64,000 nucleotides of DNA from Viola odorata (taxonomy: Eukaryota; Streptophyta; Magnoliopsida; Malpighiales; Violaceae), in the NCBI GenBank assembly GCA_963691705.1, contig OY829537.1, positions 37,575,514 to 37,639,513 on the forward strand. The letters are read 5' to 3'. Below, in pieces: positions 1 to 62,897 of this stretch (its first letter is position 1; every line of letters starts with the position of its first letter). The notes beneath the pieces are model-generated. The model worked only from the letters and a program-made list of their open reading frames with translations, did not search any database and was not told the origin of the DNA. Made by a program: the position numbers and the translations under genes.

Positions 1-664
1 AAATTCCCGAATACGGAAAGATGTATCTATCTCTAGTAAGGCATTAGCATGAGCTAACTCATCCCTAGACAACACTACTGGATTTACCCAGACAGCACTA
101 GTAATCTCTCGATTAAAGGCCCCACGCCACAAATAGGAAGGCAGTTCAAGAACGAAGAAACCTCTCTTCCAATCAGCCACGGTCTCTTCAAAGCCCTAAA
201 ACTTCTGCCAAAACGACTGCACAAACGTGTCATTCCACCTTGGGGCGATATCAACTAAACAGTTGCGGCAATTTAGACTGAAGAATTTGCAGCATAAATT
301 GACAGAGGGAGTAAAGATATCCTTAGTCTCGCAAGCACGAAGAAAGGCATAAATCTCACACCAAGAAGAGGGAGTTATCTAACCAGGATTAAGATCATAT
401 CGGCGCAACAATCTTTCTACAGATGCATGAACTGGGAAACGAAAGCCATAAAGGAATATTTTAAAGTAAACCAGTCTATATTCTCCCCACAGTGGATAGT
501 GAAGCTGAAAATTGTCCTCAGGAATGAGAGGGAAATAGCCAGGGGGAAAAGAGATACCATGACCCTCTAATTCGGCCTTCAGAACCGTCGAGCAAGAAAA
601 ATACTGTGTGTTCTTTCGATTTCTGGATCTAAAAGTCTTTGAAAACCCCTGGTAGCTCTAGTAT
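1..664 (-). pseudogene. Antisense gene A homologue, exon 1 (partial, decayed)
   Basis: Read on the minus strand this matches exon 1 of antisense gene A of E2 (47299-48004) over almost its whole length, including the motifs KAELE.HGI.FPP, YFK.FLYGFRFPVH, LNP..ITPSSWC and ITPRW/IAPRW. The family resembles the 'putative gypsy type transposon' domain (Pfam PF04195, named from memory). At least two in-frame stops break it; one, near 380, is explained by CAG to TAG. The rest of the gene is off the left edge. It matters because it shows the antisense gene is conserved between two clearly diverged Tat elements. Confidence 0.75.
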
Positions 665-1167
665 GGCACATAGCGAACCAGTAAAACAAAAATCAGAACG
701 AAAGAGGAGCAGAATACCTTGAAGAAGAAAGTGATGAATAGACTGCCGGCACCAGCGAATGGTTGAAGAAATTTCCCTTGAGCAAAAGAAGAAGCGGAGA
801 AAGAGAATAGTAGAGAAAAAATTGAAGAGGAGGTAAAAGTGTGAGAAGAGGAGGGTTATTTCCTTTTAAAGGTCAAACCCAATGATTGAGTAACCTGTTA
901 AAACAAGACACACATGAAGCAGAAAAGGACACGTGGAAAGACATTAGAAGAATATTTATAGCTAAGCATTTATATCTTCGGAGGAAGGTGGGTGACGATT
1001 GGAAGTTAAAAAAGCGGTTGCAGCGAACGGTAACCAACCGCTCAGCATTAACTGTCCAATGCTTGTGGACTTAACGCGAGAACATAACAACAAGAGAAGA
1101 AAAGTGAAGGGCGTTATTTTATTCATAAAGAGCTATACAACATCTACAATATGCATGACATACAAAG
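665..1167 (-). other. Spacer between antisense gene A and ORF3 of Tat-A
   Basis: No coding sequence is supported here. On the minus strand there is an AT-rich tract reading TTTAAAAGG at 863-872, upstream of gene A, in the place where E2 has a comparable tract. A possible donor splice site (AAG|GTATTC on the minus strand, about 714-722) resembles AAG|GTAC sites ahead of both antisense genes in E2. The promoter and leader roles are inferred. Confidence 0.35.
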
Positions 1168-1590
1168 TCAGTCTTCATCAGGCCAATAAGAGGGCCAATA
1201 GGAATTATCTCCATCCGCAGACGGCAACACCTCGTCAATAAAAGGGAATGATTCCTCAACCCTTTTCTCTTGACCCAACTTTGATGAACTTGACTCTCCC
1301 TTAGCAGCAAAAGCCATTATCTCAGCACCAATATCACTGGCAGAATCTCTTTCCATGAAACAGTCAATATGAGGAAACAGTTCATCACCCCTTCGCATAG
1401 TAGGGACATAGAAGTTAGAAGATAGGTCGGCTGCCCTCGAGTTTCTCCTCTTCGATCTCTTACGACCCTTACGGCGAGGCAACCACCTCTTCAGGCATGA
1501 TGGTGAAGGAGGATCATCGGAATTAGGAGAAGTGGGAGGAGACGGCAGAGAATCATGTTCAGCAACGTCCAGGGAATAAGAATCAGCCAT
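1168..1590 (-). CDS. Antisense ORF3 of Tat-A, 140 aa, unknown function
   Basis: An open frame of 140 codons, paralogous to ORF3 of E2 (48487-48939). Both have a proline-directed Ser/Thr block near the N-terminus (LP.PPTSPNSDDP), then a strongly basic stretch (RRKGRKRSKRR here), a variable middle, and a short acidic, aromatic C-terminus (YWPDED here, DWADED in E2). The basic run could be a nuclear localisation signal; that is inference. An AT-rich TATTTAA tract lies about 70 bp upstream (1661-1667), as in E2 (49007-49013). No known domain is recognised. The frame is intact although the neighbouring antisense genes are broken. Confidence 0.6.
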   Translation of the reverse strand: MADSYSLDVAEHDSLPSPPTSPNSDDPPSPSCLKRWLPRRKGRKRSKRRNSRAADLSSNFYVPTMRRGDELFPHIDCFMERDSASDIGAEIMAFAAKGESSSSKLGQEKRVEESFPFIDEVLPSADGDNSYWPSYWPDED

Positions 1591-2098
1591 GAGATCCTAG
1601 ACAATCTCAACAGAGAAATGAAAAGAAGAAGATGAACAGGAAACGGAAAGGGAAATCTCATTAAATAGGTGAGGCGAAGAAGCCTCCCCGCCTTCCCACA
1701 CGACCTTTGAGAATAATTAATGCGCTTCGAGAAGGATGATCATAATCGCAGAATCTGGTCACGTTTGTTAGAATTCGTACTAATCAAGAAATATCAGAAA
1801 AACTGCCCAATAAGTTTGCACTGAAGAGACGGCGCGAAATCAATGCGGAACGATTAGTGAGAGCATTTTGCCACCTGGCGAACAAGGAAAAACAAGTGCT
1901 ATAAAAGTCTCACCAACGGCGGACTCGTTTTCAGTTGGGCTAATGTGGCACTCAACTGAAACGCTGATTAGCACGTCGTAGAAGGAAAAGAAGTCACAAG
2001 TCAGATAGCGAAAGGACATTTTATTGATTTATGGCCTAACAACCTGAGCATACATCCATACAAAGAAAAGAAAAAGACAGGATGCCGACGACTGACGG
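1591..2098. other. Spacer between ORF3 and ORF4 of Tat-A
   Basis: Non-coding. It holds the AT-rich tract 1661-1667 upstream of ORF3 and, at 1920-1941, a copy of the 22-bp motif described at 2666-2687 with two mismatches. E2 has the same arrangement at 48940-49427. Confidence 0.45.
1920..1941 (-). promoter_or_regulatory. Conserved 22-bp Tat motif, copy 1 of Tat-A
   Basis: Matches the 22-bp motif of E2 (49245-49266 and 49987-50008) at 20 of 22 positions. It lies upstream, in the antisense direction, of ORF3. Function is not known: a promoter element for the antisense gene or an internal plus-strand priming site are the two readings I consider. Confidence 0.45.
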
Positions 2099-2481
2099 TC
2101 AAGCCTGGGACCCAGCATCGTCATCCTCCGGCATAGTGGGGATCTCCCTCAAGGCATCCGCCACGGAGGTCAGCTCGGAGGAGGAAATCCTCATGCCCTC
2201 CAAACAGCAGCTCAACAGATCCTTCCTCTACTGCAGCATGGTGATCACCACCTCGATGCGGGAGATAGCAGCAGTCAATTTTGACACATTCTCCAGAGGA
2301 CTAAAATCCTCCAGAGAAGCCGCACCAAGCCTGGACCGAAAAGGGTCATCATCCCTTTAAGCTCCAGGATGTCCTCAGAGGTCTTGATCAACACATTTTC
2401 TAGAAAGCCAATGTCACCATCATTGAGGTTTTTCAGATTGTGGGATTTGGAAATCAAGAAGTTCTTAGTGAGACTGTCCAT
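2099..2481 (-). pseudogene. Antisense ORF4 of Tat-A (frameshifted)
   Basis: The ATG at 2481 is chosen by homology with ORF4 of E2 (ATG at 49811). The N-terminal block (LT.NFLISK, LKNL..GDIGFLE, KTSED.LELKG) and, after a one-base frameshift near 2345, the C-terminal block (RKDLL.CCL.GMR, ELTSVADALRE, DDAGS.A) are both recognisable. One in-frame TAG near 2232, explained by CAG to TAG, adds to the damage. A TATAAATT box on the minus strand (2540-2547) lies 59 bp upstream of the ATG, and E2 has the same box at the same distance. Family unknown. Confidence 0.65.
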
Positions 2482-2539
2482 GATGAAAATGCCAAGAAGA
2501 AGTGCTAAAAAGATGAGAAATTTGCGCAGTGGAAGTTCA

Positions 2540-2547
2540 AATTTATA
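2540..2547 (-). promoter_or_regulatory. TATA box of antisense ORF4 (Tat-A)
   Basis: Reads TATAAATT on the minus strand, 59 bp upstream of the ORF4 ATG. The same octamer is at 49872-49879 in E2, 61 bp upstream of its ORF4. Conservation of both sequence and spacing across diverged elements supports a promoter role. Confidence 0.5.
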
Positions 2548-2665
2548 GGCCTGAAGGAAAGGCAGTTGAAAAGACGTGCCCCTCGACAACCGAGCCACCA
2601 GTTATCTCGAGGACTAGCAAGCACGATATAGAGGTAAGCTGAAGCGGTAGCCCTTGGTAAACACT

Positions 2666-2687
2666 CGGGCTCATTTTCAGTTGGGCT
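2666..2687 (-). promoter_or_regulatory. Conserved 22-bp Tat motif, LTR-proximal copy of Tat-A
   Basis: The core reads CATTTTCAGTTGGGCT on the plus strand and is identical to both E2 copies. It ends two bases before the 3' LTR, where a polypurine tract is expected, yet no clean purine run is present. It is also upstream of antisense ORF4. Confidence 0.5.
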
Positions 2688-2689
2688 TG

Positions 2690-35384: not shown

Positions 35385-35943
35385 TGATAACAATCCACCT
35401 AACGACAAGGGTATTTCCGTCTCTTATCCCGCATGGAAAGATCGGAACCACTGTTCCTACCTCCACGGTAGGGTCGAGGCTATCATCTCCCCCGTTAAGA
35501 GGCTAACGCTAGGAGAGCTGACATCACGAAGGGGGGGTCCCCACATCCACCTTCTGGACAACCAGAGGTGCCATCCCACCCCAAGGGAAACGCACCAACC
35601 GTTACCTCACCTGGGTAACAACCATGTCTCCACGCACCGCCCTGACGGTATATCACAACATGGGCAAACCCCTGCCCCTGACGGGACCGGTTGCTCCTTA
35701 GCAAACTTACTCACGCGGAAATGCTTCTTTCATCTATAAATACCTCCCCCACAAAGGAGGAAGGTAAGCACGAATTACTGGCCCAAGCTCTGCCAAATTC
35801 ACTACACATACTGACTTAAGCATCTGAGTGTTTCCGCCGGAGACCCCCTCCGGCGTATTGCAGGTACTGCAGACCGCCGCGGGCACTGATCTGAGAGGAC
35901 CAATTTCTCCATATATCCTTCGGCAGAAGACAAATTCTTATCA
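35385..35943 (+). repeat. 5' LTR of E2 (559 bp)
   Basis: TGATAA to TTATCA. A TATAAATA box is at 35735-35742. It is adjacent to the ttagg duplication on the left and to the primer-binding site on the right. Confidence 0.95.
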
Positions 35944-35946
35944 AAT

Positions 35947-36130: not shown

Positions 36131-38605
36131 GTGCAAGATGTCACTGCGGGAGAATCAGATCCTCCTCCTGGGCAAAGTACGGAAGAAATTACATTCCAGA
36201 TTTGTTCCCCCTTTTTCCACATAGCGGGAACCAGTCATTCTACCCCCCAAGCAAGTAGATCCGCGATAGGTGAAGCAAACAACCCTTTCGCAAGCTCAAT
36301 AGTAGCTCTCCAAGCTCAATTGGATCAGTTGACAGAGATGGCTGCTGGATTTACTCCTCATGCCTCGAGACCTGGTATGTCCTCCCGAATAGTTTTCACT
36401 CCGTCCATCGTCAACGAACGACCATTATCGCCCCGACGATCTAGGGGACTCCCGTCCTCCTTACCTTTTTCCTCGGCCCCCATAAATGTCCTGCCGCTCA
36501 CACGAGGACCTGTTGAACATTCTGGACAATACAGGGGGGAAATCCCTATCCCTGAGATAGCCCGCCGACATGATGAGCACAGAGAACACTGGGATGATCG
36601 GCGGGGGGAGATATTCCGAGAGCAATCTCCTAGATACAGTGAGACATCTAGCAACTGAGGTCGATGAGCTCGAACTCCAAGAAGCCGTAGCCGATCTCCC
36701 AGGCGGCTTCAAGAATATGACCCTCAGAATCCCAGATATGATGTTGAAATTCCACACCCGCATCAGCCTCGTGGGGTCCCTGATATTAACGTTGGCCATC
36801 CGTTCAGTTACCGTGTCAGGAACCACAGGGTCCATCGGCATGTGAAACTCCCTACAGAATCATATGATGGCACGAAAGATCCCATTTCTCACCTCAATAA
36901 GGTGAAAGACTTTGTGCAATTCCAAACCCGCAGTGATGCTGCATTATGTCAGATCTTCGTAATGACGCTGTCAGGAGTGGCACGTCTTTGGTTTGAGAGA
37001 CTCCCGGCCGGGTCTATTGATAATTTTTCTCAACTGGAAGAAAAATTCAAAAGTCGGTTTAGCACGGCTATTCCTATCAGGAAATCAGCAGCTGCACTAT
37101 TCGATATTCATCGAAGACCGCAGGAATCATTGAACAACTTTTTAGGTCAATTTGATCTTGAAATGTCCCTAACGCCAGGGGTCACTATTGATTTTGCGGT
37201 TGAGGCCCTGAAACGCAATTGTCGATATGAGAAATTGAGGGACACGTTAACGGTGGACCCGCCGCTAACCCTGGATGCGTTAAGGCTAAAAGCGCATAAT
37301 TATGCGAGGATGGAAGAGGGGGAAAATAGGGAATGGATCCGAAACATACCAACGGACCCGTACTTGGCCCTTAATGCCCCGCATAGTAGCACCTCTGACA
37401 CGCGACCCACTGAGGATCAAGGACAACGAAAAGAGCATACTGCCAAGGCCTCTAACCGGTAGAGAGGCAATTTCTGGAAAGGAAGACCCAGAGGGTCCCC
37501 CACTCGGAAACAAGCAGATCCGCCAAAGGGCCGGATATATGATCCTGACCTTCCATCTCTTATACTCCCAAGGGCTGAAATCCTAGCGATAGTCCAACAG
37601 CGAAATCTGCCCATTAGATATCCAGCTCCTGTGAAGCCAGGAGTGATCATGGGAGGAAGGGAAAACGCGTATTGCAAGTTCCACAAGGGACATTTGACAG
37701 ATGTATGCAGAGAACTGAAATTGGCCATAGAGCGATTGGTCGAAGAGGGCTACCTTAGAGAATTTGCCACCAGGGCAAGAGAAGAGCCCAGGAACAACCC
37801 AATTGGAATGACAACTGATCAGAGGCAAACGCCTTCACACGCCACGGGGCCTAACGCAATTCCCCTTGGACAAAATAGAGAAGCTCTCGTTGTTCATAGC
37901 GATCAGATGCCTATGATTAATATCATCGCCGGGGGAACACCCTACTTCGAGGAGGCCATACCACAAACGCCCAATCCTGGGGAAAAGCACAAGCGAGAGA
38001 ACGCGCAGGTAAAAATTGAGGTGATCAGTGCCTTAGACAGAATGATATTGTCCTTCTCAGAAGAAGACAAAAAAGGCATTATTTTCCCGCATAACGACGC
38101 GTTGGTAGTAACACCCTTCATTGGAAGTCACGGGGTGAGAAGAACCCTTGTTGACAACGGGAGCGCAGTAAATCTATTTTCGTTGGAAGCATACAATTTG
38201 ATGAAACGCCCTGGCGGTGAGCTAGCGCCATGCATGAGGCCAATTGTTGGGATTGATGGGGTACCGATTCCGGTAGCCGGAATAACATTCTTGCCAGTGT
38301 ACTTTCGAGAAGACACCTCCCAGCGATCTGAAGAGCTATTATTCCTGGTTGTGGACTTAACGTTACCATATAACGCCATATTGGGGCGACCGTTCCTCAA
38401 TCGTTTCGGGGCAGCGATATCCCAAACACACCTGCGGATGAAATACCCCTCGTGGAACGGCGTGGTCTCAATCAAAGGAGACCAGAAACTGGCAGCTGAG
38501 TGTTATTCGCTTATGACTCAAAGGAGTTGTGACCGCTACGTTTGCGTGGCAGATGATCCCTTCGATGATAAAATGAAAAGCGTACTCAACCGCTCGATCA
38601 AATGA
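36131..38605 (+). pseudogene. gag: E2 gag-protease, one frame with three stops
   Basis: A single frame from 36131 to 38605, broken by TGA at 36656, TGA at 36665 and TAG at 37460. Each is one C-to-T change from a sense codon. The gag core is at 36842-37320 (ESYDGTKDPISHLN, ARLWFERLPAGSI, NFLGQFDLEM). The protease is near 38130 (TLVDNGSAVNLFS), followed by NAILGRPFLNRFGA. The true start is uncertain: a plus-one frame upstream (35980-36130) also reads protein-like, so an earlier start with a later frameshift is possible. The frame ends in an ATGA overlap with pol. Confidence 0.8.
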
Positions 38606-41600
38606 TGTCAATACCTGTCGGAGAGGACAGTGAAGCGAACCTCTTGATTATGAAGAAATTAAGCCCAAAAGAGAATGTGCAATTAGCTCGACTGTTAAGA
38701 AAATGCAAAGGGGAATTCGCGTGGAAACCGGCAGACATGCCAGGAATCTCACGAGAGGTCGCAGAACACCGGTTAACCATTAGCCTCGACGCTAAGCCCG
38801 TCCAACAAAAACGACGCGCCTTCTCACCAGAAAAGATAGCGCCCATCGAGAAAGAGTTACTAAAGCTCACCGATGCGGGCTTCATCCGAAAAGTCCAATA
38901 CCCAACCTGGCTGGCTAACCCTGTGTTAGTCCCTAAGCCTAACGGCGATTGGCGCATGTGCATCGATTTCACTGACTTGAACAGCGCCTGCCCCAAAGAT
39001 TGCTATCCCCTTCCCCGAATCGACCAATTGGTCGACCAAACTGCTGGGTACGCCTACCTGAGCTCCTTAGATGCTAACTCCGGGTATCACCAAATCCCTA
39101 TGGCCATAGAAGACGAAGAAAAAACTGCCTTCATCACCCCTAGGGCTACATATTGCTACACCGCAATGCCGTTTGGGCTGAAGAACGCCGGGGCAACATT
39201 CCAGCGCATGGCGAATAAGGTTTTCGAAAAGCCAATCAGGAAAAATGTAGAGGCTTACGTGGACGATATCCTGATTAAAAGTCGGAGCTTCAAATACCAC
39301 CTTGCTGACTTGGAAGAAGTTTTCAATGTGATGAAAAAGTACAAAATGAAACTGAATCCATGAAAGTGTATGTTTGCATTCCAAACGGGTAAATTCTTGG
39401 GCTACGTGGTCAGCCGGAAGGGTATCCAACCCAACCCTTCAAAGATAAAGGCCATTCAAGACATGATATCCCCTCGGACCGTCAAAGACATACAGAAACT
39501 CACCGGCCGCATCATCGCGTTAGGACGGTTCATATCTAAGCAAGGCGAGAGATGCTTGCCTTTTTTCAAGGTCATTCGAAACAAGGCCCCATTTGGGTGG
39601 ACAGAGGAATGCAAAAATGCGTTTGCAGGGCTGAAAGTTTACTTGTCATCCGATTTAGTGCTAACGAGGCCTGAGTCCGGCGATGAGCTATATCTATACT
39701 TGGGAATAGCCGACGAGGTAGTCAGCACCGTCCTTGTGCGAAGCGAAGGGCATGTACACCGTCCTGTATTTTTTGTGAGTCACATATTGAAAGATGCTGA
39801 GCTGCGATACGCTCGCATCGAGAAGATAGCGCTTGCCCTAGTACAGGCAACGCGAAAGATGGACCAATACTTCCAAGCCCACCCTGTCACTGTGCTCACT
39901 GATCAGCCGCTGAGAAAAATCTTTAGAAAGCCTGAGTCTTTAGGGAGGATGTTGATTTGGGCAATCGAGCTTGAACAATATGGGCTGCAGTACAGAGCCA
40001 GACCGACGATTAAAGCCCAAGCGTTAGCAGACTTCATAGCGGAATGCACATTCACCAAAGATGCGTCGGCAGTCCCGTCAGAGGAAGAACCAGAAAATTC
40101 ATGCCTACCGTACCCGGAAATGTTAGCGGACTCATGGGTTATTCAAGTGGACGGAGCAAAAAATCAAGAGCTAGCAGGTGCAGGTATATTCCTGGTGGGA
40201 CCAGACGGCATGGAATTGCGATACGCCATCAGAATCCTGCAGCCGTTATCCAACAATGCCGCTGAATACGAAGCGCTGCTGGCAGGGCTCAGAATTGGAA
40301 ACAGCTTCTCCGTCGAAGCCTCTACCGTTGCGGAGGAGGAATGCGGCTTGCGCCTAAAAATACGAGGAGACTCTAAATTGATAATGGATCAAGTCCTAGG
40401 AAACTCCCAAGCCCGAGAACCCATCATGATTCAATACTTGGCCAAAGTAAAGCGTGAGCTGTCGGAGATGCAGAAAAAAGGCACTCGGGTCACCTTTGAA
40501 CATATCCCCAGAGAAAATAATGAAGAGGCTGATAGCCTCGCCAAGATGGCAGCCAACATGGAAGCCTTCATACCCAACAAAGTGCACTACGGGGAGTTAT
40601 CCATACCCTCTTTCATGGAAGAACAAGCATCGCTCTGTGTGGAAGAAATAGAAAGCGACTGGAGAACCCCAGTGATAGAATATCTGAAACATGACAAGCT
40701 GCCAGAGGAGAGCACGGAAAGGAGGAAAATCCTGAAACGAGCGGCGCGATGCACATATTACAACGGAGAGTTAGTACGGAGGTGTTTTTCCCATCCTGCC
40801 GCTAAGTGCATAACAGAGCAAGAAGGCTTGCATATGCTACGAGAAATTCACGAAGGGATATGCGGCATGCACATCGCCAGCGATACACTGGCAGCCCAAG
40901 TGTTTCGGTCGGGATTCTACTGGCCCACCATACGAGGAGATTGCCATAACTTCGTGAAAACCTGTCAGAAATGTCAGGAATATGCTAGGATTCCTCGAAA
41001 ACCGGCCGCGCAAATTTCAAAAATAATCGCTCCATGCCCGTTTGCCAAATGGGGCATTGACATTTTAGGCCCGTTTCCAAAGGCTAGATCTCAGTTGAAA
41101 TTCATGATCGTGGCGGTAGACTACTTCACAAAATGGGCCGAAGCCGAAGCGTTAGCCACCATCACCACTGAAAACATTTGGCATTTTTTCAAACACCAAG
41201 TCATTATGCGATTCGGGGTGCCGCGCATACTGATTAGCGACAATGGAACGCAGTTCACAAGCCAATTCTTCAGGGATCAGTGTGCGGAATTTCAGATCGA
41301 ACAAAGGTTCTCTTCCGTGGCGCACCCTCAAACCAATGGCCAGGCAGAAGTAACCAACTGCAGCATCCTTAGTGGCATCAAAAGAAACCTGGAAGGATCC
41401 AAAAAGAAATGGCCAGACGAACTGCCATACGTACTATGGGCCTATCGCATGACTGTCAAGGCCGGCACTAGAGAGACCCCGTTTGCGTTAGCATTCGGAA
41501 CTGAAGCTGTCACACCGGTTGAGATCGGAATGATGAGCCTTCGGGTGGCTCATTTTAAAGAAGAAAATAATGAGGAAAGGTTACGTGCTAACCTTGATGC

Positions 41601-41895
41601 CCTACCGGAAACACATGAGGAAACTCTCCTGAAAACTATGCACTACAAAAGAAAAATGGCACAATACCACAACCGACAAGTGAGAGAGCGATTGCTCAAA
41701 GCTGGAGATTTAGTGCTTAGAGATAGACGAGCGGCAGGGCAACGCATGGGAAAACTCAGCCCAAACTGGGATGGACCGTATCGCGTCACCTGTGTTGTGG
41801 GAAGAGGAGCTTACCACTTGGAAACGCTCGAGGGAATACCCCTGCAGAACTCTTGGAATATAGCTCGGCTGAAGCTATACCACGCCAGGAACTAG
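38602..41895 (+). pseudogene. pol: E2 pol: RT, RNase H, archaeal-type RNase H, integrase (one stop)
   Basis: 1098 codons with a single TGA at 39361 in the conserved KLNP.KC motif. RT spans codons 70-250 with YVDD at 219-222. A first RNase H lacks the usual D-A-S block (it reads YLGIADEVVSTVL) and looks catalytically dead. The second, archaeal-type RNase H has all four acidic positions (QVDGAK, AAEYEALL, RGDSKL, EADSLAK). Integrase has a CQKC zinc finger, GIDILGPF, ISDNGTQF and NGQAEVTN, then DGPYRV (GPY/F). It starts with ATG 38602 inside the gag-pro stop. Confidence 0.9.
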
Positions 41896-42853
41896 CCCAT
41901 CCTATCTGGTAATATCAATGCTATTCTAACAAGATATATTTTCCTATGCGTTTGCTGTTGATAAAATACAGATAGTGAAGAATGCCAGGAGTGAAAATCC
42001 TATCCTTGTGATGGCTGGTCCTGATCAGACAGCTCACTAAGACGAGGCACGCCCTGGCATGGCTAAGCGTTGGGAGTGAAAATCCTATCCTTGTGGAAAC
42101 CGTGCTCCCATAGACGACCCATTAAGACGAGGCACGTTCCAGAGACGCGAGGTTTCAACGCTTGGGAGTGAAAATCCTATCCTTGTGATGACCGGTCTTG
42201 ATCAGACGGCTCACTAAGACGAGGCACGCCCCGGTATCCTTAGGAGTGAAAATCCTATCCTTGTGGTAACCGTGCTCACACAGACGGCCCATTAAGGCGA
42301 GGCACGACCCCAAGGAGAGACCAACTCCATCCTGGAAGTGAAAATCCTATCCTTGTGGTAACCGTGCTCACATAGACGACCCATTAAGACGAGGCACATT
42401 CCAGAGACGCGAGGTTTCAACGCTTGGGAGTGAAAATCCTATCCTTGTGATGACCGGTCTTGATCAGACGGCTCACTAAGACGAGGCACGCCCCAAGCCG
42501 ATCTTCGACATACGGAAAGGAAGGATACCCCAGCTAGTAACTGAGCGGTTGACACTCGGTGAAGCAAAGTTGGAAAGAGATCCATACCGCAACAACACCG
42601 CCACGACAGGCCTAGTAAGGCTAGAGTTGCTCCTTAATAACAAAGGGTGGCGTAAAGCTGAGCGCAACATGTGCAGAGGTAGCACAGCAAACGTTATGGG
42701 CTGACAATTTCACAAGTAGTAAGGAGAAACAAGCTAAATGAAAAAAGTCCAAAGCCGGGGATTAATCAAGAAAAAGTAACTTTGTCAATATTACAAAACA
42801 AAAGGGGGCGCATCAGCCACAAAAGTCAAAAAAAGACGTATCAAGAATGATGT
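41896..42853 (+). other. E2 region between pol and antisense gene B
   Basis: No coding sequence. Holds the minisatellite (41987-42492). The remainder, 42493-42853, is unremarkable and probably serves as 3' sequence for both pol and antisense gene B. Confidence 0.6.
41987..42492 (+). repeat. Six-unit minisatellite downstream of pol
   Basis: Six units begin with GAGTGAAAATCCTATCCTTG (near 41989, 42071, 42167, 42243, 42337, 42428) and contain CACTAAGACGAGGCACG or CATTAAGACGAGGCACG. Unit length varies from about 75 to 95 bp. Two subtypes, one with a TGATCAGAC core and one with GTGCTC.CA.AGACG, occur in the order a b a b b a. Variable tandem repeats in this position are known for Tat elements. 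Confidence 0.9.
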
Positions 42854-43116
42854 CTAAGGAGCAGGTGATGCACCGCCTCCTTCCTGCTGAGTAGATCTCC
42901 AGCGATGAAATCCCTCATCAGTGATGGTGGCGATCCTCTCTTCAAAATACCGACCAAGAAAATCAGCGTCGAGGTTATCTATCCCGTGCTTAAGCATAAA
43001 ACCGTCAGACATGATGCCCCCGCCTTCTTTCAAATACCAACGGCTCTTCTCAGCAGAAAGAGCGAGATCGGATGACAGCTCAGCGTTCCGCTGTCTCTCT
43101 TGACGAAGCTCATCCT

Positions 43117-43310
43117 CCAGCTCTTGCTTAGCAATTGTTGCCTCCTTAGCAGCAACCGCGGCTTCCCGTTTGGCAGCCTCCATCTCTTGCTTAGCAGTTG
43201 TTGCCTCCTGAGCAGCAACCGCGGCTTCCCGTTTGGCAGCCTCCATCTCTTGCTTAGCAGTTGTTGCCTCCTGAGCAGCGACCGCGGCCTCCTGTTTGGT
43301 AGCCTCCGAC
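43117..43310 (-). repeat. Three 63-bp coding repeats in gene B
   Basis: Three head-to-tail units of 21 codons, consensus EAAVAAQEATTAKQEMEAAK, form a regular coiled coil near the C-terminus. The second and third are almost identical at DNA level, so the array expanded recently. Confidence 0.85.
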
Positions 43311-44050
43311 TCTTGTTTGGCGGCAGCAACGACATTCACGTAACCCTGACGCTCTGATAGTAATCTGTTCAGCTCCCCCTGCCCGTTTGCCTCCACTCTA
43401 GCGTTTTCTTCATCCATATAATGAAGATGGCAGAGCGAGGAAAATAGCTGGGAGCGAAGAAAGTTTATACGCTCCTGCTGGCTCCTAGCCGCAAAGGCCT
43501 CTCTCTCTCTTGGAATAGACATTATCTCAGCTGCCAATAAGGAGGTACATGAGAGGACATAGTCAGGAGGAGCATCCACTGGAAACTGCAAGTAGTTATC
43601 TCGGAAGGAGCGCAGGCTGAACCGGTGAGTAGGCATCACAGGAGGAGCATAAGTTGAGGTATGAACCATCAAGCTGGGAGTAGGGCCACCTCTCGCAGCA
43701 ATCGGAGGAGACACTGGAACAAAAAGCAAGGTGGGAGGAGAAGAGGGTCGACTAATGGTACCGTCAGCGTTAGGGACAGAAAGCCCGTCACCCCCGAGCA
43801 ATTCGCCATGATGAGCCATCAGATTGGAATAAATCGGAGAATCACTCAAAACATGAGGACCACCGCCAAAATTGGCACCCTGCGGCTGCTCAACTGACAC
43901 ACCCCCGAGGACAGCCCCAGAAGGATTGGCAGCAGATGAAGTCGGGCTTTGTTGAAACTCATAACGAGCCTTCTTTTGGCGCTCTCAAAGGACGTCTGTC
44001 ATAGACATGTCGTCTTGAGAGGAAGAATGAGCGGAAACAGTGGCAGTTTC

Positions 44051-44123
44051 CTGGATAGCACAAAGTATAATGAGAAAGTGGCACGAAGAGAAAAGGAAAC
44101 CATAAGAAGACACAAGTACGTAC
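44051..44123 (-). other. Intron 2 of antisense gene B (73 bp)
   Basis: Donor CAA|GTACGT and acceptor CTATCCAG|GAA on the minus strand. 73 is not a multiple of three, and removing it connects exon 2 to exon 3 in frame (phase 0). The sequence is T-rich as plant introns are. Confidence 0.65.
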
Positions 44124-44422
44124 TTGTGCACCAGAAGGAGCTAGAGGAATCCCAGAGAGAATCGGGCTAGCAGTTGCCTCTGAAGAGGCGACAGTATGAG
44201 AGGAAACGGAAGGCGTAGTACGTGTCTGCCTAGCCCTTTTCTTCCTTACGGCGCGAGTACGAAGAGGCGGTTGGGCAACGTCTAGAGCGGTAGCAGTAAC
44301 TTCCCCTTCAGCGGTGGTAGCAGTAGCAGCCGCGGCAGCTCGAGCTTCGGTTTCGGCTTTCTTCCTTTGCTCTCGTTTCCTCTTCCTTCAGAAATATTCT
44401 GGCTCCCAACCGGGTGGAGGAA

Positions 44423-44490
44423 CTGCACAAATACAAAACGTTAGCGTTAGCACTTCTTGGAAGAGCAGAAGGAAAGGTCAAACGCTCACC
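44423..44490 (-). other. Intron 1 of antisense gene B (68 bp)
   Basis: Donor AAGG|GTGAGC, acceptor TTTGTGCAG|TT on the minus strand, phase 1. It is at the same place and in the same phase as the intron of gene A (47233-47298), which argues that it is real and older than the duplication of the two genes. Confidence 0.7.
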
Positions 44491-45212
44491 CTTTTTGCAC
44501 TGCTCTATGTCCAACCCGTTAGCCACTTTACGGGCATCGACGCTGAAGTCTAATTGAAGCAGTGTCTTCAACCAGCCGTCCTCCGGGTCGGAAAGGGGTT
44601 TCCGATCACCCCAGGCCCCATCTCTGATTTCCTCGTTAAAGTCAGCCCTCCACATAGGCTCAGGCAGATCAATAATAAAAAATTCTTCTTTCCAGTGGGG
44701 AACAGAAGACTCGATGCCCATGAGTTTCCAAGTGAAGGGCTTTAAGGAGTCATCTTCATAACGAGGGGATATCGATATAACCCCCTTGCGGGAATATAAC
44801 TGGAAGATATCGCGAAGCAATGCCAAGGTGGGAGAAGCAATCCCTTTAAAATGACACGAAGCGGCAAATGCACTAACAACGCAAATCGCGTTGGGGCTCA
44901 ACTGAGCCGGAGCCCGATCAGAATCGGCCAACAACAATTTCACAAGCGGGTCAAGGGGAAGACAAAACCCATGGTCAAACAACTTGGCATACAGCATTCT
45001 ACTATTAGCGGTAAAACGCTGTTCAGGCGAAGAGATTCAGAGGTAGCACGAACGGGATAATCTCGGGGAAATCGACCCTTAGACCCGGCAAGCTTGCGAT
45101 TAATCAAGGCTAGCGTGTAAAGGGAGGTGGGTGTATTATCAATCTTTTCTTCCCCGGCAGACCTCGGAGGATCCCCTTCCTCGGAAGAGTTTTTAGCACG
45201 GGTCTTAGCCAT

Positions 45213-45898
45213 AATTAACAAAGGAAAAAGAAAGAGGGAAGAAAAAAGGTGTGTACCTTCGCAAAAAGAATACCAGCAGTCTCGAACCAGAAAAGAAGAA
45301 GCGGCGCGGGTGAAATACCTAACAGCGTGCAAAAGAAAAGATTAAAAAAGAAAGAGGAGGTAGGGAAAACATTATATATAACCCTGAAAGGGCACTACCA
45401 ATTAGCAGCTGACACATGGCGAAGCAGCGCGTCAAAAGGGGAAGCGCGCGCGTGAAGGCATAAATTTTAAAACAAAAGCGCGAGAGGAAATAAGTTTAAA
45501 ACAATGATGAAATGCTTCAGTACTCGCGTCTCCCTAGAAGACGCCTGCTTCGAGCGCCTCTCTGAAGGGACACGTGTCCTCCTCCATCATTACTTTTCAA
45601 AACCGCATTAAATGAAGGACTACAACATTTAATGACCTAAAAAGCAGCACTAGCTCCACCAAACGGCACGACGCGGCAATAATAAGAAAGAGAACGAAGA
45701 GGCAACGGTAACATTACAATGAATCAAACGGTGCAATAAGAGTTACATAACATCAGCATTATTACAGAAGAAATAATGTCAGACAATCCCCAGCAAAGAA
45801 TAAAATAAAGCAACGGGAACAGCAACAAAGGAGGAACCAGGAACCCGTCGTGAAACTTAAGGCACCCGTCAAAGGAAAATCACGCGCTACCATTGCTG
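45213..45898 (-). other. Spacer with putative promoter of antisense gene B
   Basis: A minus-strand TATATATA box lies at 45373-45380, about 160 bp before the gene B ATG. A possible leader donor site GAAG|GTACAC (about 45249-45263) resembles AAG|GTACCA ahead of gene A, so a leader intron is conceivable. No coding sequence is supported between 45400 and 45898. Confidence 0.4.
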
Positions 45899-48004
45899 TC
45901 AGCCCCTTTCCCCATCCGGAGTGGAAGAATCGTTCCCACCTTTGCCAACCTCATCCATGACAACAGAAACGTAATCAGCAATCTGGGCCGGATCAGAAGG
46001 ATTACCTTTGAAACGGGTTGCAAATCCAGAAACAAAGGCCTCCAAAACCTTCTTCTTTCGCAGCTCTTCCCTTAATAGTGCCCTGGCAGACTCTTCATCT
46101 CAGGCCAGCATCTCCTCGCGAAGAAGAAGATTCTTTTTTCTCTTTAACGATAACTCGGCCTCCAGAACCTCCATTCTCGCTCTCCCGGCAGACTTTTCTC
46201 TATTTAGCTCCTTTTGAGACTCGTCATAAAGACGCGTTAGCAGTCTCGCATGGTCCGCCGACTTATCAAGTTGCACCTTTTGAACGCGCATTGCGTTAGA
46301 GAAATTTCGTGACTCGCGATCGTGAATATCGAACAGATAGTTCAGATAGCGGAAGTTATCCAGGGAATCATTCACAACATGTCGAAGACGAGCTGCTGGA
46401 GGAAGCTGAAGGAATTTCTCTTTCCCTGACCGAGAGCTCATCATTTCCCCTATTAGGGGCGCGGTAAACTCATCTCTAGAAAAGGGTTGAGGAACCCCGG
46501 CAGCGCGAAGACCGTCGAAACAGAACCCTGCCAAGTTCATGCGATAGGCTGGGGCATCGTTAGGACCACCATAGGAAAGATTGATTGGCGGAACTGAACC
46601 CTCAGTAAGCACATTCGTGATAGGAGTAAAGAATAGCTCGGGAAGGGCTCTAGGCGACAGCCCAGCCGCTGAGTCCGCAGCAGAAGATGTGGTCGTCACG
46701 TCGGGAATGCAATGAGAAATTGGGGAATCAGGAACGACAGCTGTAGGAGGAGGACATGCTGTCGGAGGAATCTCCACCTCGGTAAAACAAGTGGCGGCTG
46801 GCACCCCAATAATTTTCTCTGGCTGGGAAGTCCTTCCCCTAGGAGAAGCGACAGGTGTAGAACCAGTTGCCGCGTCAGCAGAAGACGTCCCGATAGCCTG
46901 TTCGCTCGCATCCACTCGGAGCCTTTTCCGACGCAGGGAAGAAGCAATGGAAGAGGCATGACAAAGGTCAGGCTTAGCATCTGTATCCTGATCGTCACTA
47001 TCGACCAACCTTGTCGCAGTTTGGCTAGATTCCGCCCCCTTGCGACGATCCGGTAGCCAATTCTCCACGAAGCGAGAAGCTCGAGCGGAACCGCCGAACC
47101 TTCGCCCTCCTTGGGCAACCGTTTCGGTTCTCCTCCTGGGAGGCTGAGCGCGTCCCTGATTGGACCCTCCAGCAGGAGGGGAAGTTGGTAAAGTTTGGAG
47201 CGGTACAACATTCAATGGAACGCCGGTATCACCTGGGAACCGAGTGTTAGCATACTAAAAAAAAATAAAATTTTTATTATGAAAAGAGCCAGACTCACCC
47301 ATAACGCACTCCTCTAGAGGCTTGAATAAAGCGAAGTCGTGGATGCGATAGCAGGTGTCCTCGTCTAACAAAGCGTTAGCCTGCTCCAGCTCAGCTCTGG
47401 TTAATATCGCGGGATTCTTCCAAATGGGGCCTATGAGCTCCTGATTGAAATTAATACGCCACAAACGAGACGGTAGCTCAAGAGCGAAGAAACTAGTCTT
47501 CCAGTCAGCCACACCCTTCTCAAAGCCGCGAAACTGCTGCCAGAACGACTGCACGAACGCGTCATCCCATCGAGGAGTGATTTCGATTAAACAATTATGA
47601 CAACTCATACTAAAGAATTTGAGAAATAAATTGAGAGATGGGGTGAGAATGTTCTTCAACTCGCAAGCGCGAAGAAAAGCATAAACCGCACACCAGGAAG
47701 AAGGAGTTATCTGGGCAGGATTAAGATTATACTCCCGCAGTAGCGTTAGTACTGATTCATGAACGGGAAAACGGAAACCATAAAGGAACATCTTAAAATA
47801 AAGTAGCCTACAAGAACCCCATGCCGAATTATGAAGCCGCATGTAGCTTTCAGGAGCAGAGGGTTCGTGCCAGGGAGGAAAGGTGATACCGTGTTCCTCC
47901 AGTTCGGCCTTCAGAACCACATCGCAGGTAAAAACACTTGGCGATTGAGCGACCTCTGGATCCATGGGTTTCCAGAGGACCTGGCGAGGCCTATTTCTAA
48001 CCAT
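45899..48004 (-). pseudogene. Antisense gene A: two exons, PF04195-like N-terminus, coiled-coil C-terminus
   Basis: Exon 1 48004-47299, exon 2 47232-45899; the total of 2040 nt is exactly 680 codons. Splicing joins a phase-1 G to GT and restores a Gly codon, whereas reading through the intron gives a stop after 14 codons. Exon 1 carries KAELEEHGITFPP, YFKMFLYGFRFPVH, LNPAQITPSSWC, ITPRWDDAF. Exon 2 is Ser/Pro/Thr-rich, with a basic RRKRLR run, then a coiled coil. One TGA at 46100 interrupts it 67 codons before the end and fits CGA to TGA. Paralogue of gene B and homologue of 1-664. Function unknown. Confidence 0.75.
47233..47298 (-). other. Intron of antisense gene A (66 bp)
   Basis: Donor ATGG|GTGAGT, acceptor GGTTCCCAG|GT on the minus strand. 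It is AT-rich with a T-run (47260-47270) ahead of the acceptor. An upstream AG after the T-run would put a stop in frame at once, so the CCCAG site is chosen. Confidence 0.75.
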
Positions 48005-48486
48005 AATAAGCCAGCAAAAAGGGAAAATCTGAGAAGGATTAAAGTGGTACCTTAGATGGAAAGATCTACGGGAGAATCAGCAGAGGACGGCGGACGGACG
48101 GAAAGTTATTCGGAGAAGAAAGCGAAGGAAGACGAAGGGAAAAATTCAAAGCGGGGGCAAAAAGTTTTGGAAAGAGAAAATGGTCCTTTTTAAATGATTA
48201 AAATGCCACCGCATTAATTAAGCCGCCAGTCATGCAAGGACGCGTGGAAAAAGAAATTGGCCACATGGAAAGCATTAAAGAACTCGAACAGAGAAGTTAT
48301 TTCCCTAAAAGAACGACAGAGTTGACCCAGTCAAAGTAACCGCGAAACGATTGCCTCGGTAAGGCTAACCGCTTGCGTTAGCTGTCAACAAGACCAGCAG
48401 GCTAATGGGAAATAACGACAAAAGAAAAAGGCAGAAAACATCATCTCATTCATAAAATGCCAACAGGCATATACAACACAAAGTCG
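48005..48486 (-). other. Spacer upstream of antisense gene A
   Basis: Minus-strand AT-rich tract CATTTAAAAAGG near 48188-48200 and possible leader donor AAG|GTACCA near 48047-48056. No coding sequence is seen. Confidence 0.35.
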
Positions 48487-48939
48487 TTAATCCTCATCAG
48501 CCCAGTCCGCGCCATAGCAGTAATCATAGTCCTCCGGGGACGATGGTAATCCACTGTTGTAGGAAAGGGAATATTCGGCAGGTTTAGGCACAAGCTTTGT
48601 CGCGTGGGCTACCATCTTGTCATAACAGGCACGAGAACTCTCCCCGATAGTAGAAGCTACCGTCCTCAAGTCAGTGCCACGAGTAAGGGCCTCTTTCTCG
48701 GAAGGAGGAGGAGGGGCAGACGGTGACGTTTCAACACCTTTCGATAGCATCAGGTAGTGGGGCACAAAGCCTGCAAAGAAGGACTCAAAGGTCTGCTTCT
48801 TCGCTTTCACTAGCTTCTTGCGACCCTGGCGTCTAGCGAGGTATTTGGTAGGTCTCCACGGTGGTGTCAGAAGGGGATCATCCGAATTCGGCGAAGTCGG
48901 AGGAGTTGGCAAGGAATCGCGCTCATAAAAATCTGTCAT
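48487..48939 (-). CDS. Antisense ORF3 of E2, 150 aa, unknown function
   Basis: ATG at 48939 is chosen because the homologue in Tat-A (1168-1590) starts there; 39 upstream in-frame codons are leader. Features: a Thr/Ser-Pro block (LPTPPTSPNSDDP), a strongly basic stretch (RRQGRKKLVKAKK), a Ser/Pro-rich middle and an acidic end (DWADED). The frame is intact while gene B and gene A beside it are broken. A TATTTAA tract at 49007-49013 lies 68 bp upstream. A nuclear role is a guess from the basic run. Confidence 0.65.
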   Translation of the reverse strand: MTDFYERDSLPTPPTSPNSDDPLLTPPWRPTKYLARRQGRKKLVKAKKQTFESFFAGFVPHYLMLSKGVETSPSAPPPPSEKEALTRGTDLRTVASTIGESSRACYDKMVAHATKLVPKPAEYSLSYNSGLPSSPEDYDYCYGADWADED

Positions 48940-49427
48940 TCTGACCTGCAAAAAAGAAAGAGAAGGAAAAGAGGAAGATGAACAGGGAAAGGGGAAAGCA
49001 TTTCCCTTAAATAGCTGAGGAAGCACTCCGATCCTCACGCAGATCCTGAGAAACAATTAAGATGCCTGGGAGAAATAACCGCAATAGCAGAATCCGATCC
49101 GGCACAAGCATAGCTACTCGATAAATGCGCCAATCAAAAGGCACCAAACAACCACCCAGTCACTTGTTCCTGGAAAACGGCCCTGGAAACAGTTGAGACA
49201 GAACATTCATTGAACATAACCACGACAATGGCTATGTCCTGAGGCGGGCTCATTTTCAGTTGGGCTCATAATGAATATCCCAACTAAAGCATCAAGGGAT
49301 CGAGCGGGAAAAAGAAGATTCGATAACAAGTGGAAGCAACCATTTATTTATGGCCTAAGCGGCCGAAGAAGTCTAGGAATATACAAAAAACATAAAAGAA
49401 AATAACAAGATGAGGCAAAGGCAGCGG
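48940..49427. other. Spacer between ORF3 and ORF4 of E2
   Basis: Non-coding. Contains the ORF3 upstream tract 49007-49013 and a copy of the 22-bp motif at 49245-49266. Collinear with 1591-2098 of Tat-A. Confidence 0.45.
49245..49266 (-). promoter_or_regulatory. Conserved 22-bp Tat motif, internal copy of E2
   Basis: Identical to 49987-50008 and 2666-2687 over all 22 positions. It lies about 230 bp upstream of the ORF3 AT-box on the minus strand. Confidence 0.5.
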
Positions 49428-49811
49428 TCAAGCATTAGATCCAGCGTCATCTTCCCCGGGCACAACAGGAACCTCCCTCAAAGCATCAGCAACGGAGGTC
49501 AACTCGGCCGAACAGGCCCTCATGCCCTTCAAGCAGCAGGCCAATAGGTCCTTCCTCTGCTGCAGCATCGAAGCTACCACATCGAGATGAGCAGTAGTGA
49601 TGGCCAGCTTCGCCAAGCTCTCCAGAGGGCTAAAGTCCTCCAAAGATATCCCCAGCTGTTTAGACAAAACAGGAGTCAGAATTCCCTGCAATTCCAGAAC
49701 GTCCTCGGAGGTCTTAAGGATCATCCTCTCCAGGAAACCGATATCGCCCTCAGTAAGGTTCTTCAGGGTCAAAGTCTTAGAGATCAGGAAATTTCTGGTC
49801 AGCTCATCCAT
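49428..49811 (-). CDS. Antisense ORF4 of E2, 127 aa, unknown family
   Basis: ATG at 49811, 61 bp downstream of a minus-strand TATAAATT box, conserved with Tat-A. The protein has two conserved blocks: N-terminal LTRNFLISK..LKNLTEGDIGFLE with KTSEDVLELQG, and C-terminal RKDLLACCLKGMR with ELTSVADALREVP and DDAGS. Predicted mostly helical, no signal peptide or membrane segment. The frame is complete. No family recognised. Confidence 0.7.
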   Translation of the reverse strand: MDELTRNFLISKTLTLKNLTEGDIGFLERMILKTSEDVLELQGILTPVLSKQLGISLEDFSPLESLAKLAITTAHLDVVASMLQQRKDLLACCLKGMRACSAELTSVADALREVPVVPGEDDAGSNA

Positions 49812-49871
49812 AGTGAAAGGTGGAAAGAAAGGACGAAAAGGTGTGGAGAAATTCACACAAAAAGAAGCTTC

Positions 49872-49879
49872 AATTTATA
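49872..49879 (-). promoter_or_regulatory. TATA box of antisense ORF4 (E2)
   Basis: TATAAATT on the minus strand, 61 bp upstream of the ATG; conserved with 2540-2547. Confidence 0.5.
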
Positions 49880-49986
49880 GCTCCTGGACAAGTATAGTCA
49901 GGGTCAGCTTGTTTCCTGACAAAGAGCCGCTCCGGTACGAAGAGAAATAACACATGAAGAAGAGGCGATAGCCCTTGGTAAACACT

Positions 49987-50008
49987 CGGGCTCATTTTCA
50001 GTTGGGCT
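49987..50008 (-). promoter_or_regulatory. Conserved 22-bp Tat motif, LTR-proximal copy of E2
   Basis: Ends two bases before the 3' LTR, exactly as in Tat-A. It occupies the polypurine-tract position without being purine-rich. Confidence 0.5.
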
Positions 50009-50010
50009 TA

Positions 50011-50569
50011 TGATAACAATCCACCTAACGACAAGGGTATTTCCGTCTCTTATCCCGCATGGAAAGATCGGAACCACTGTTCCTACCTTCACGGTAGGGT
50101 CGAGGCTATCATCTCCCCCGTTAAGAGGCTAACGCTAGGAGAGCTGACATCACGAAGGGGGGGTCCCCACATCCACCTTCTGGACAACTAGAGGTGCCAT
50201 CCCACCCCAAGGGAAACACACCAACCGTTACCTCGCCTGGGTAACAACCATGTCTCCACGCACCGCCCTGACGGTATATCACAACATGGGCAAACCCCTG
50301 CCCCTGACGGGACCGGTTGCTCCCTAGCAAACTTACTCGCGCGGAAACGCTTCTTTCATCTATAAATACCTCCCCCACAAAGGAGGAAGGTAAGCACGAA
50401 TTACTGGCCCAAGCTCTGCCAAATTCACTACACATACTAACTTAAGCATCGGAGTGTTTCCGCCGGAGACCCCCTCCGGCGTATTGCAGGTACTGCGGAC
50501 CGCCGCGGGCACTGATCTGAGAGGACCAATTTCTCCATATATCCTTCGGCATAAGACAAATTCTTATCA
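50011..50569 (+). repeat. 3' LTR of E2 (559 bp)
   Basis: Same length as the 5' LTR, with 11 differences by eye, nine of them transitions and about half at CpG sites. Followed by the ttagg duplication. Confidence 0.95.
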
Positions 50570-51854
50570 TTAGGGTTGGTATTTTGGAGGTCTCTTGGGG
50601 AGTGTATGGTTTGGGGTCGAGTGGGTCGGTGTAGTTTGGTCGGGAGTCAGTTGGTTTGGTATAGCTTGGTTTAGAGGTGCTTGTTTGCCAAGGCTTTTTG
50701 GTATTGGTCACATAGTGTGGAGTAGAAGAAGAAGTAGTATTGATAAAGTTTCAGGATTTAGAGCTTACTTGGCGTTCTAGTTTAAGGGCTAGGTGATATA
50801 TCTCCTCGAGTGTATTGTAGGTAAGGAAGTCGAACTGTAGGGAGATTTCCTTGCGAAGACCACCAAGAAATCGGGCCATAGTTGCCTCACTACTCTCTCG
50901 TACATCCAATCGCGTCAACATGGACAACATCTCATGGTAAAACTCCATGACACTTTTACTTCCTTGATACAATCGTTGGAGTTTCTGATGTAAATCTCGG
51001 AGGTAGTAGACCGGCACAAACCGTCGCCGCATCTCCTCCACCAGTTCAGTCCAAGTCATTTTTGGTGGTTCATCGTCCAATCTTCTATTGATTAGGACTC
51101 TCTCCCACCACTGTATGGCCAAACCTGTGAACTCAACAACAGCCAAACGACACTTCCTTTCTTTCGAGTCAGTGTAACATGTAAATATCCTTTCCATCTT
51201 ACTTTCCCATTCATAATAAACATCAGGGTCGTCGTTACCCTCAAAGGATGGAAGAAAAAATTTAATACTGGAGGGATTGTCATACCGTTCCTCATGTCGA
51301 GCTGCCCTTCGAGCCTCTCTTAGAGGTTCATGCCGTGATGCGTCAAAGAAAGGCGTTTGACGTGATGGAATATGTGACCGAGGGAGGATCAGATTGGACA
51401 CGAATGGGTGGTATGGTGGTGGCATATAGGAATTTGCGTGGTGGAGTGAAATGTTAGGCCCTCGGTTAGACGTGTTGTTTCGAGTTCGATTTAGTGGTTG
51501 GGATGTTTGGGGCATTTTAGGGGGTGGGCGGTTATGTGATTGGCGATCCTCCTCGTTGTCGCTACTATCAGTATGGGCATAGACACCTTCAGTGTTGCTA
51601 TTAAAGGGAGGACTATATAGGAGTTGATTCCTTGGATCGGTGGATCGGGTTCTTTGTTGGAAGTGGGGAAATGTAGGGGTTCTTTGTAGTAGTGGTGTTT
51701 GTAGTGGTGGGGGTGTTTGGGCTTGTCGAGTTTCGTTGGCCTCGAGCCTAGCCATCATTTTCTCCAATATGGAGCTAATGTGGCTCATGTTTGGATCGGG
51801 CGGTGGGGGTGGTACTTCCGAATGTTCTTCGGTAATGGTAGGGTCGTTGGACAT
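50570..51854 (-). pseudogene. gag: E1 gag, right of E2
   Basis: ATG at 51854 (MSNDPTITEEH), Pro/Gln-rich N-terminal part, then the gag core (FFLPSFEGNDDPDVYYEWE, FTGLAIQWWERVL, RRRFVPVYYLRDLHQKLQ, MARFLGGLRKEISLQFDF), open to 50751. The final part 50711-50570 continues after a break to the E2 insertion point, beyond which the zinc knuckle lies at 35345-35300. Apart from that break the core is intact. Confidence 0.85.
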
Positions 51855-52486
51855 GATGTGTACCTGAACAAAGAAAATAAACACAAAGGAGAACTAAAAG
51901 GTGTTTGTTAGTACCCTTCCTCACGTGTTTACACTCTTCCCTCTATTGTTCTCACCAAAATCACACAAAAACAAAGTTAATGCCAATTTTAGTTTAAAGA
52001 CTCAAAGAATGATGAGCACTTTAGTGACACACAATGAAAACTCGACACACAAAGAAAGGTATGGAAAATTAAGGTAATAACATGAACAAAGTGAAGTTAT
52101 GCACTTACCTTAATTTGTAGTAGAAAAGATGTGGAATCAATAATGGAAAACTTACAAAGACTCGAATGAAGAATGGCGCAAAAGGGTTGTTGTTTAGGAA
52201 GCCGAAAGAAAAGCTTGACTCGTCCAATTTAAGACCACGTCAAGTGTTGAAAAGCTTACCTAGCGATCTTGCCCCTTGCTTTTGACTTGTGTCGATCTTT
52301 GATTTTATTTTATTTTTTAATTTTTTGTGATCACAAGTGAAGGGTCGCTCAGATCGTAGATAAATAGTAAAGAAAATAAAATTTGCGTTAGTGGCAAAAT
52401 TTATACAATGGATAATGAATTTTGGAAAATTGAAAAGGAATTGATTAGAGCAATTTTGAATGTTTACCAACCTTCGAGACAGTCGA
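51855..52486 (-). other. E1 leader
   Basis: About 0.6 kb between gag start and primer-binding site, AT-rich, no gene. Confidence 0.6.
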
Positions 52487-52498
52487 GCTCCGCTACCA
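52487..52498 (-). promoter_or_regulatory. Primer-binding site of E1
   Basis: TGGTAGCGGAGC on the minus strand, two bases from the LTR. Confidence 0.75.
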
Positions 52499-52500
52499 CG

Positions 52501-62885: not shown

Positions 62886-62897
62886 GCTCCGCTACCA
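62886..62897 (-). promoter_or_regulatory. Primer-binding site of G4
   Basis: TGGTAGCGGAGC on the minus strand, two bases from the 5' LTR. Confidence 0.8.

Follow-up and report, generated by a model that had tools for sequence, protein, structure and literature searches.

An antisense cluster of two predicted spliced paralogues and two small genes in a Tat-clade LTR retrotransposon of Viola odorata

We analysed a 64,000-nucleotide stretch of Viola odorata DNA (the window; assembly GCA_963691705.1, contig OY829537.1, positions 37,575,514 to 37,639,513 of the forward strand) and, within it, the long terminal repeat (LTR) retrotransposon E2, a single element at 35385-50569 flanked by the target-site duplication TTAGG. 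Between pol and the 3' LTR, E2 carries four genes, B, A, ORF3 and ORF4, on the strand opposite to gag-pol (Table 1). The minus strand of this region (41896-50010, 8,115 bp) contains nine stop-to-stop frames of at least 130 codons, the longest of 384 codons, whereas the plus strand contains none and its longest frame has 127 codons. In 200 dinucleotide shuffles, the minus strand had a mean of 0.94 such frames (maximum 4), and its longest frame was 140 codons long on average (maximum 271). We read the cluster, with high confidence, as two spliced paralogues (A and B) together with two small intronless genes. The original prediction had placed minus-strand genes downstream of pol inside one Tat element; the LTRs with their target-site duplication, an additional RNase H domain and the excess of frames bear this out, and the ranges it gave for the four genes are all correct. 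The window also contains the 3' part of a diverged related element, Tat-A, which is cut by the window edge inside gene A so that A exon 1, ORF3 and ORF4 are visible.

Paired LTRs and the 5-bp duplication identify E2 as an LTR retrotransposon insertion. The LTRs differ at 11 of 559 sites (nine transitions, two transversions and no gaps; Kimura two-parameter distance 0.020), which at a substitution rate of 1.3e-8 per site and year corresponds to an insertion age of about 0.8 million years. Pfam recognised Retrotrans_gag (E = 1.1e-10) and RVT_1 (E = 2e-30) in gag-pol, which is broken by four stops and one frame change. In the pol open reading frame (ORF), the domain order is RT_RNaseH (108-204), RVT_3 (260-394), Integrase_H2C2 (487-538) and rve (555-653). 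An additional RNase H defines the Tat clade, and its location between RNase H and integrase marks Ogre and Retand (PMC6317226). Judged by its sequence, E2 has the additional RNase H of the Tat clade of Ty3/gypsy and is a Tat-clade LTR retrotransposon. RVT_3 stands before both Integrase_H2C2 and rve, as in Ogre and Retand, and the antisense TRP28 (Transposase_28) ORF between pol and the 3' LTR makes Retand the most likely lineage within Tat. In a tree of 42 pol sequences chosen among 120 listed matches (317 matches, 8,000 scored candidates), which holds no lineage-labelled references, E2 branched with Mercurialis and Manihot with a support of 0.946 and with Mercurialis alone with 0.589, a placement that hints at a host in the Malpighiales. 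An Rfam search of E2 gave no match.

Exon 1 of gene A matched PF04195 with E = 1.6e-10 and 41.5 bits, above the Pfam gathering cut-off of 26.2, and A is thus a member of this family. Gene B, with E = 1.8e-4 and 22.1 bits, falls below the same cut-off but can be aligned to A, and is therefore classed as a paralogue of A and not as a Pfam member. The exon-1 piece of B shares 33% identity with A exon 1 over 175 amino acids (E = 1e-31), and hhalign aligned A with B across 148 columns (E = 4.6e-20), whereas the Pfam model PF04195 comprises only 69 residues. The first introns of A and B are predicted at the identical position and in the same phase (1), just past the homologous region, and a stretch resembling the known CTAAC motif lies ahead of the acceptor of intron 1 in both. 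By these alignments and the common intron position, A and B are paralogues, as originally proposed, with homology reaching well beyond the Pfam model.

The last exon of B encodes a coiled-coil repeat of 21 residues from a 63-bp tandem repeat, perhaps like the Smc matches listed in a survey of Retand elements (PMC11963269). Six of the six residues listed as conserved in that survey were found by eye in B and five of the six in A. In E2, A contains a single premature TGA (46100-46102), and the frame of B shifts near 44.99 kb and is also stopped by two in-frame TGAs. A donor-like AAG/GTA site was also seen approximately 20-60 nt ahead of the ATG of A, both in E2 (48005-48050) and in Tat-A (~705-720), and of the ATG of B (~45240-45260).

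ORF3 has an N-terminal DSLPxPPTSPNSDDP common to Tat-A, a basic stretch and an acidic C-terminus. Between E2 and Tat-A, it shows 36% amino acid identity over 134 codons, rising to 50% over the first 48, and ORF4 shows 64% over 124 codons. Family searches for these two genes used Pfam only, and gave no match for ORF3 and ORF4 of E2 (E up to 0.1) or for ORF3 of Tat-A (E up to 1). Scans of non-plant collections found no relative of A exon 1 (viral and other genome contigs) or of pol, ORF4 and ORF3 (viral contigs). ORF3 and ORF4 look like two apparently new small protein families.

Table 1 Features of E2 and Tat-A in the window (position 1 is the first letter of the window).
Feature	Position	Strand	Basis or remark
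5' LTR of E2	35385..35943	+	559 bp, TG...CA ends, TTAGG target-site duplication
gag-pol (gag, reverse transcriptase, RNase H, additional RNase H, integrase)	36131..41895	+	Pfam matches; frames read
Tandem repeat array adjoining pol	41990..42497	.	Tandem Repeats Finder, periods ~78-170 bp
Gene B, A paralogue, three predicted exons, coiled-coil C-terminus	42854..45212	-	Alignment to A; frames read
B intron 2 (predicted), 73 nt, GT-AG, phase 0	44051..44123	-	Sequence prediction, not RNA
B intron 1 (predicted), 67 nt, GT-AG, phase 1	44423..44489	-	Sequence prediction, not RNA
Gene A, TRP28 (Transposase_28) protein, two predicted exons	45899..48004	-	PF04195 match; omega against Tat-A
A intron (predicted), 66 nt, GT-AG, phase 1	47233..47298	-	Sequence prediction, not RNA
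ORF3, 150 aa	48487..48939	-	Open in E2 and Tat-A
TATA-like box of ORF3, 68 nt ahead of ATG	49007..49014	-	Conserved patch 49005-49020 / 1659-1674
22-bp element, internal copy	49245..49266	.	Tat-A counterpart 1920-1941
ORF4, 127 aa, small acidic protein (pI 4.6)	49428..49811	-	Open in E2; conserved in Tat-A
TATA-like box of ORF4, 62 nt ahead of ATG	49873..49880	-	By eye
22-bp element, LTR-adjacent copy	49987..50008	.	Tat-A counterpart 2666-2687
3' LTR of E2	50011..50569	+	559 bp, paired with 5' LTR
Tat-A, 3' part of diverged related element	1..2689	-	A exon 1, ORF3 1168-1590, ORF4 ~2099-2481

Alignment confirmed the earlier claim that the order and orientation of A, ORF3 and ORF4 in Tat-A match those in E2. 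A exon 1 of the two elements is 62% identical over 205 residues. Tat-A is itself decayed: its A exon 1 contains two stops, its ORF4 is interrupted by a frameshift and a stop, and its ORF3 (140 aa) is open. Omega (dN/dS) was estimated by maximum likelihood from the one pair E2 and Tat-A, with 40 bootstrap replicates each for A exon 1 and ORF4. It was 0.172 for A exon 1 (203 codons, dN 0.29, dS 1.68, bootstrap range 0.090-0.252, 2dlnL 66.7) and 0.130 for ORF4 (124 codons, dN 0.26, dS 2.02, bootstrap range 0.068-0.185, 2dlnL 60.3), with likelihood-ratio p < 1e-13 for both. The fitted omega of ORF3, 0.094 (134 codons, dS 7.7, bootstrap range 0.000-0.317), is saturated. Differences at codon positions 1/2/3 numbered 57/41/103 in A exon 1, 34/22/69 in ORF4 and 64/58/89 in ORF3, an unevenness that is strong in A (p = 2e-7) and ORF4 (p = 6e-7) and weak in ORF3 (p = 0.02). 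Among neutral simulations of ORF3, 60 at each of three divergences, none of the 180 reached the observed 2dlnL of 30.0, one reaching 28.6 at the highest divergence; the third-position share, 0.42, is within what the simulations produced (up to 0.45).

These comparisons indicate that A exon 1 and ORF4 are under purifying selection on the protein and that ORF3 is probably under constraint, a pattern suggesting that one or more of the four genes are required by the element. The expectation of dN/dS well below 1 was thus borne out for A exon 1 and ORF4, and for ORF3 the value is below 1 but saturated; values near 1, the outcome named in advance as contrary, were not found in these three comparisons. 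Since both copies are broken, some of the differences between them arose neutrally, and live copies were probably constrained more strongly than estimated.

The same comparisons bear on two alternatives. The genes might be passengers, i.e. captured host sequences that bring no benefit and are now decaying, as the broken A, B and gag-pol of E2 and the decay of Tat-A would allow. Purifying selection between two well diverged copies speaks against this, as does the survey of recently active Retand elements, in which antisense ORFs occur in the region between pol and the 3' LTR of all clusters and TRP28 in 97% of them (PMC11963269), and we regard it as highly improbable. Alternatively, the minus-strand RNA itself could be functional, pairing with the genomic RNA and limiting or tuning transposition, with coding being secondary. 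Antisense retrotransposon RNAs are described as triggering silencing or interfering with reverse transcription (PMC7264820, PMC12786077), but the low omega in A exon 1 and ORF4 argues for selection on the protein, and identity between E2 and Tat-A is only 57% in noncoding stretches against 66-67% in the coding stretches of A exon 1 and ORF4; a role of the RNA as such is very unlikely.

Promoter-like signals lie ahead of the minus-strand genes. The ORF4 TATA-like box has a counterpart in Tat-A at 2541-2548, 60 nt ahead of the ATG, and lies outside the conserved patches under a 14-of-16 rule; the counterpart of the ORF3 box is at 1661-1668, 71 nt ahead of the ATG. TATA-like stretches, read by eye only, also lie ahead of A (E2 and Tat-A) and B (E2), and a patch with AATAAA-like words is located downstream of ORF4 in both elements. 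The TATA-like boxes and the AATAAA-like patch suggest separate transcription units.

A 22-bp element, CGGRCTCRTTTTCAGTTGGGCT, occurs four times in the window, twice each in E2 and Tat-A, with one copy beside the 3' LTR and the other approximately 745 bp upstream, between ORF4 and ORF3. The perfect fit of the four copies is by construction, because the pattern was derived from them. No match to the pattern was obtained in 100 shuffles at up to three mismatches, and a 14-bp core was found at the same four sites and at no other with up to two mismatches. In the noncoding columns of the E2/Tat-A alignment, 37 windows of 22 columns had at least 20 matches, mainly from the two copies of the element; 2,000 permutations of the columns gave 0.06 such windows on average and never more than 11. 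The LTR-adjacent copy occupies the position expected for the polypurine tract and is not purine-rich. The element may serve to start the plus strand, its second copy being internal, or may be bound by regulatory proteins.

By its sequence features, the E2 cluster is a further variant of the antisense genes already described for Retand. E2 resembles the surveyed Retand elements in its Tat-type pol, its long region between pol and the 3' LTR, its antisense TRP28 gene and its further antisense ORFs, coiled-coil-like in E2 and with Smc matches in the survey (PMC11963269). A tandem array adjoins pol in E2 and in about half of the Retand clusters (PMC11963269). The region between pol and the 3' LTR is longer in E2 than in the survey (8,115 bp vs 2,933-6,566 bp), as is the internal region (14,067 bp vs 7,380-12,869 bp) (PMC11963269). 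E2 has a pair of TRP28-type paralogues; the counts in Table 1 and the text of the survey (57 TRP28 ORFs of 600 bp or more, spread over 56 of its 63 clusters) would, by our own arithmetic, allow at most one cluster to carry two recognised TRP28 genes (PMC11963269). ORF3 and ORF4 are shorter than the 600-bp limit of the survey, and introns, which are predicted in A and B, are mentioned nowhere in its available text (PMC11963269).

In its antisense gene between pol and the 3' LTR, E2 is also like maize Grande (gene23) and rice RIRE2, although one antisense gene per element is discussed there and E2 has four; the likeness is drawn from published descriptions (PMC7264820). Ogre, another member of the Tat clade with extra ORFs, carries PF10536 (plant mobile domain) as its extra domain where Retand carries PF04195 (PMC6317226); a Pfam search of the E2 proteins at E up to 0.1 gave no match to PF10536.

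The original prediction had called the module undescribed. Antisense TRP28 genes are in fact published for Retand, at the frequency given above, and the module is to that extent less novel than supposed. An intron-sharing A/B pair, families like ORF3 and ORF4, and a repeated 22-bp element were absent from the literature matches listed, in a search that mostly lay outside subscription papers, and the 22-bp core string returned no plant retrotransposon title among the matches listed. The expectation of the same genes in other Tat families drew no match from searches with A and ORF4, whose reach was limited.

We consider separate minus-strand genes, transcribed by RNA polymerase II and encoding nuclear regulatory proteins, the best reading of the cluster and give it about an even chance. 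The host RNA polymerase II would probably transcribe the four genes of integrated copies, each apparently under a promoter of its own, as the TATA-like boxes ahead of each gene suggest. The minus-strand mRNAs would be spliced and translated, and the proteins would most likely re-enter the nucleus to regulate transcription or silencing of the element itself, in the manner of HBZ of the human T-cell leukaemia virus (HTLV). Minus-strand introns are not removed from the plus-strand genomic RNA, and spliced genes can therefore persist in a retroelement only in antisense. We propose nuclear action from the orientation, the introns, the separate promoter-like sites, the selection on the protein and the nuclear location reported for the Grande protein, whose gene is reported to be transcribed antisense from its own promoter (PMC7264820). 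TRP28 of Retand has a predicted DNA-binding surface, its function being unknown, and HBZ of HTLV-1 is likewise encoded on the antisense strand of an LTR element and acts as a regulator in the nucleus (PMC11963269). The comparison with HBZ is one of how the genes may work, and no sequence relation is claimed. HBZ is spliced. To the nuclear regulatory role on its own we assign somewhat less than an even chance.

Two further readings concern how the proteins might act. They could act late, joining the particle or the pre-integration complex and aiding nuclear entry or integration. A role like that of retroviral accessory proteins, with mention of nuclear entry of the pre-integration complex, has been proposed (PMC7264820), and the long coiled coil of B would fit it; minus-strand mRNA, on the other hand, cannot be packaged genomic RNA, so that the proteins must be made separately, and no sequence sign of contact with Gag or integrase was seen. 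We judge late action rather unlikely.

In a narrower form of the nuclear regulatory reading, at least one of the proteins would prevent the host from silencing the element, much as VANDAL DNA transposons are protected by their VANC proteins. With separate promoters on the proviral DNA, the genes could be expressed from a copy whose LTR is silent. MAIN and MAIL1, host proteins with a plant mobile domain, silence transposons. That domain is also the extra domain usually carried by Ogre, the sister lineage (PMC6317226). No sequence or structural link of TRP28 to any silencing factor was found, however, and this form seems to us unlikely. A more elaborate reading would make the cluster one regulatory cassette by which the element controls its own silencing and replication from the opposite strand. 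A would pair with B in a TRP28 heteromer by way of the N-terminal region common to both, with ORF3 and ORF4 as their partners in the nucleus, and the 22-bp element, present at the 3' LTR boundary and again between ORF3 and ORF4, would be their binding site or a second plus-strand start; we consider it quite unlikely.

Several observations weigh against this best reading of the cluster. That the genes are transcribed and spliced, and that their products enter the nucleus and regulate the element, is what we infer, and the splice sites are predictions. The second exons of A and B are barely alike (hhalign E = 0.015; BLAST score matched by 8 of 200 shuffles). Strong basic clusters are few, namely RRKR and KRKK in A exon 2 and RRQGRKK, the basic stretch of ORF3. 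A structure model of A exon 1 from a five-row alignment had a mean pLDDT (predicted local distance difference test) of 38.2 and was of no use, and a search for solved structures related by sequence returned none. In a protein collection that holds plant proteins, no relative was found for A exon 1 (258 candidates, E up to 0.001) or ORF4 (29 candidates, E up to 0.01), blanks that are weak because of word and length filters. In E2 both A and B are broken, as are A and ORF4 of Tat-A. The selection estimates come from one copy pair, in which dS is close to saturation (1.7 for A exon 1, 2.0 for ORF4), and the window offers no second copy of B.

Other elements were observed in the window. E2 seems to be nested in an older minus-strand gypsy element (30477-35384 and 50570-53592), with a likely LTR pair at 30477-31687 and 52497-53592 (84%), gag at 50751-51884 and integrase at 32291-33112. 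A young Ty3/gypsy element at 55913-63936 has 1,038-bp repeats that are 99.6% identical and, on the minus strand, an open polyprotein of 1,745 aa. Direct repeats at 18663-19677 and 22155-23188, 94% identical over ~1 kb and 3.5 kb apart, are perhaps a short or non-autonomous LTR element.

Retand is one of the largest groups of plant retrotransposons, and almost all of its recently active clusters are reported to carry antisense genes. If the minus-strand genes are indeed spliced, separately promoted and under purifying selection, they would be true accessory genes of Retand. The TATA-like boxes, introns and 22-bp element would then be exact sites that can be tested with existing RNA data, and the ORF3 and ORF4 families, hidden so far by length cut-offs, would widen the set of plant retroelement proteins.

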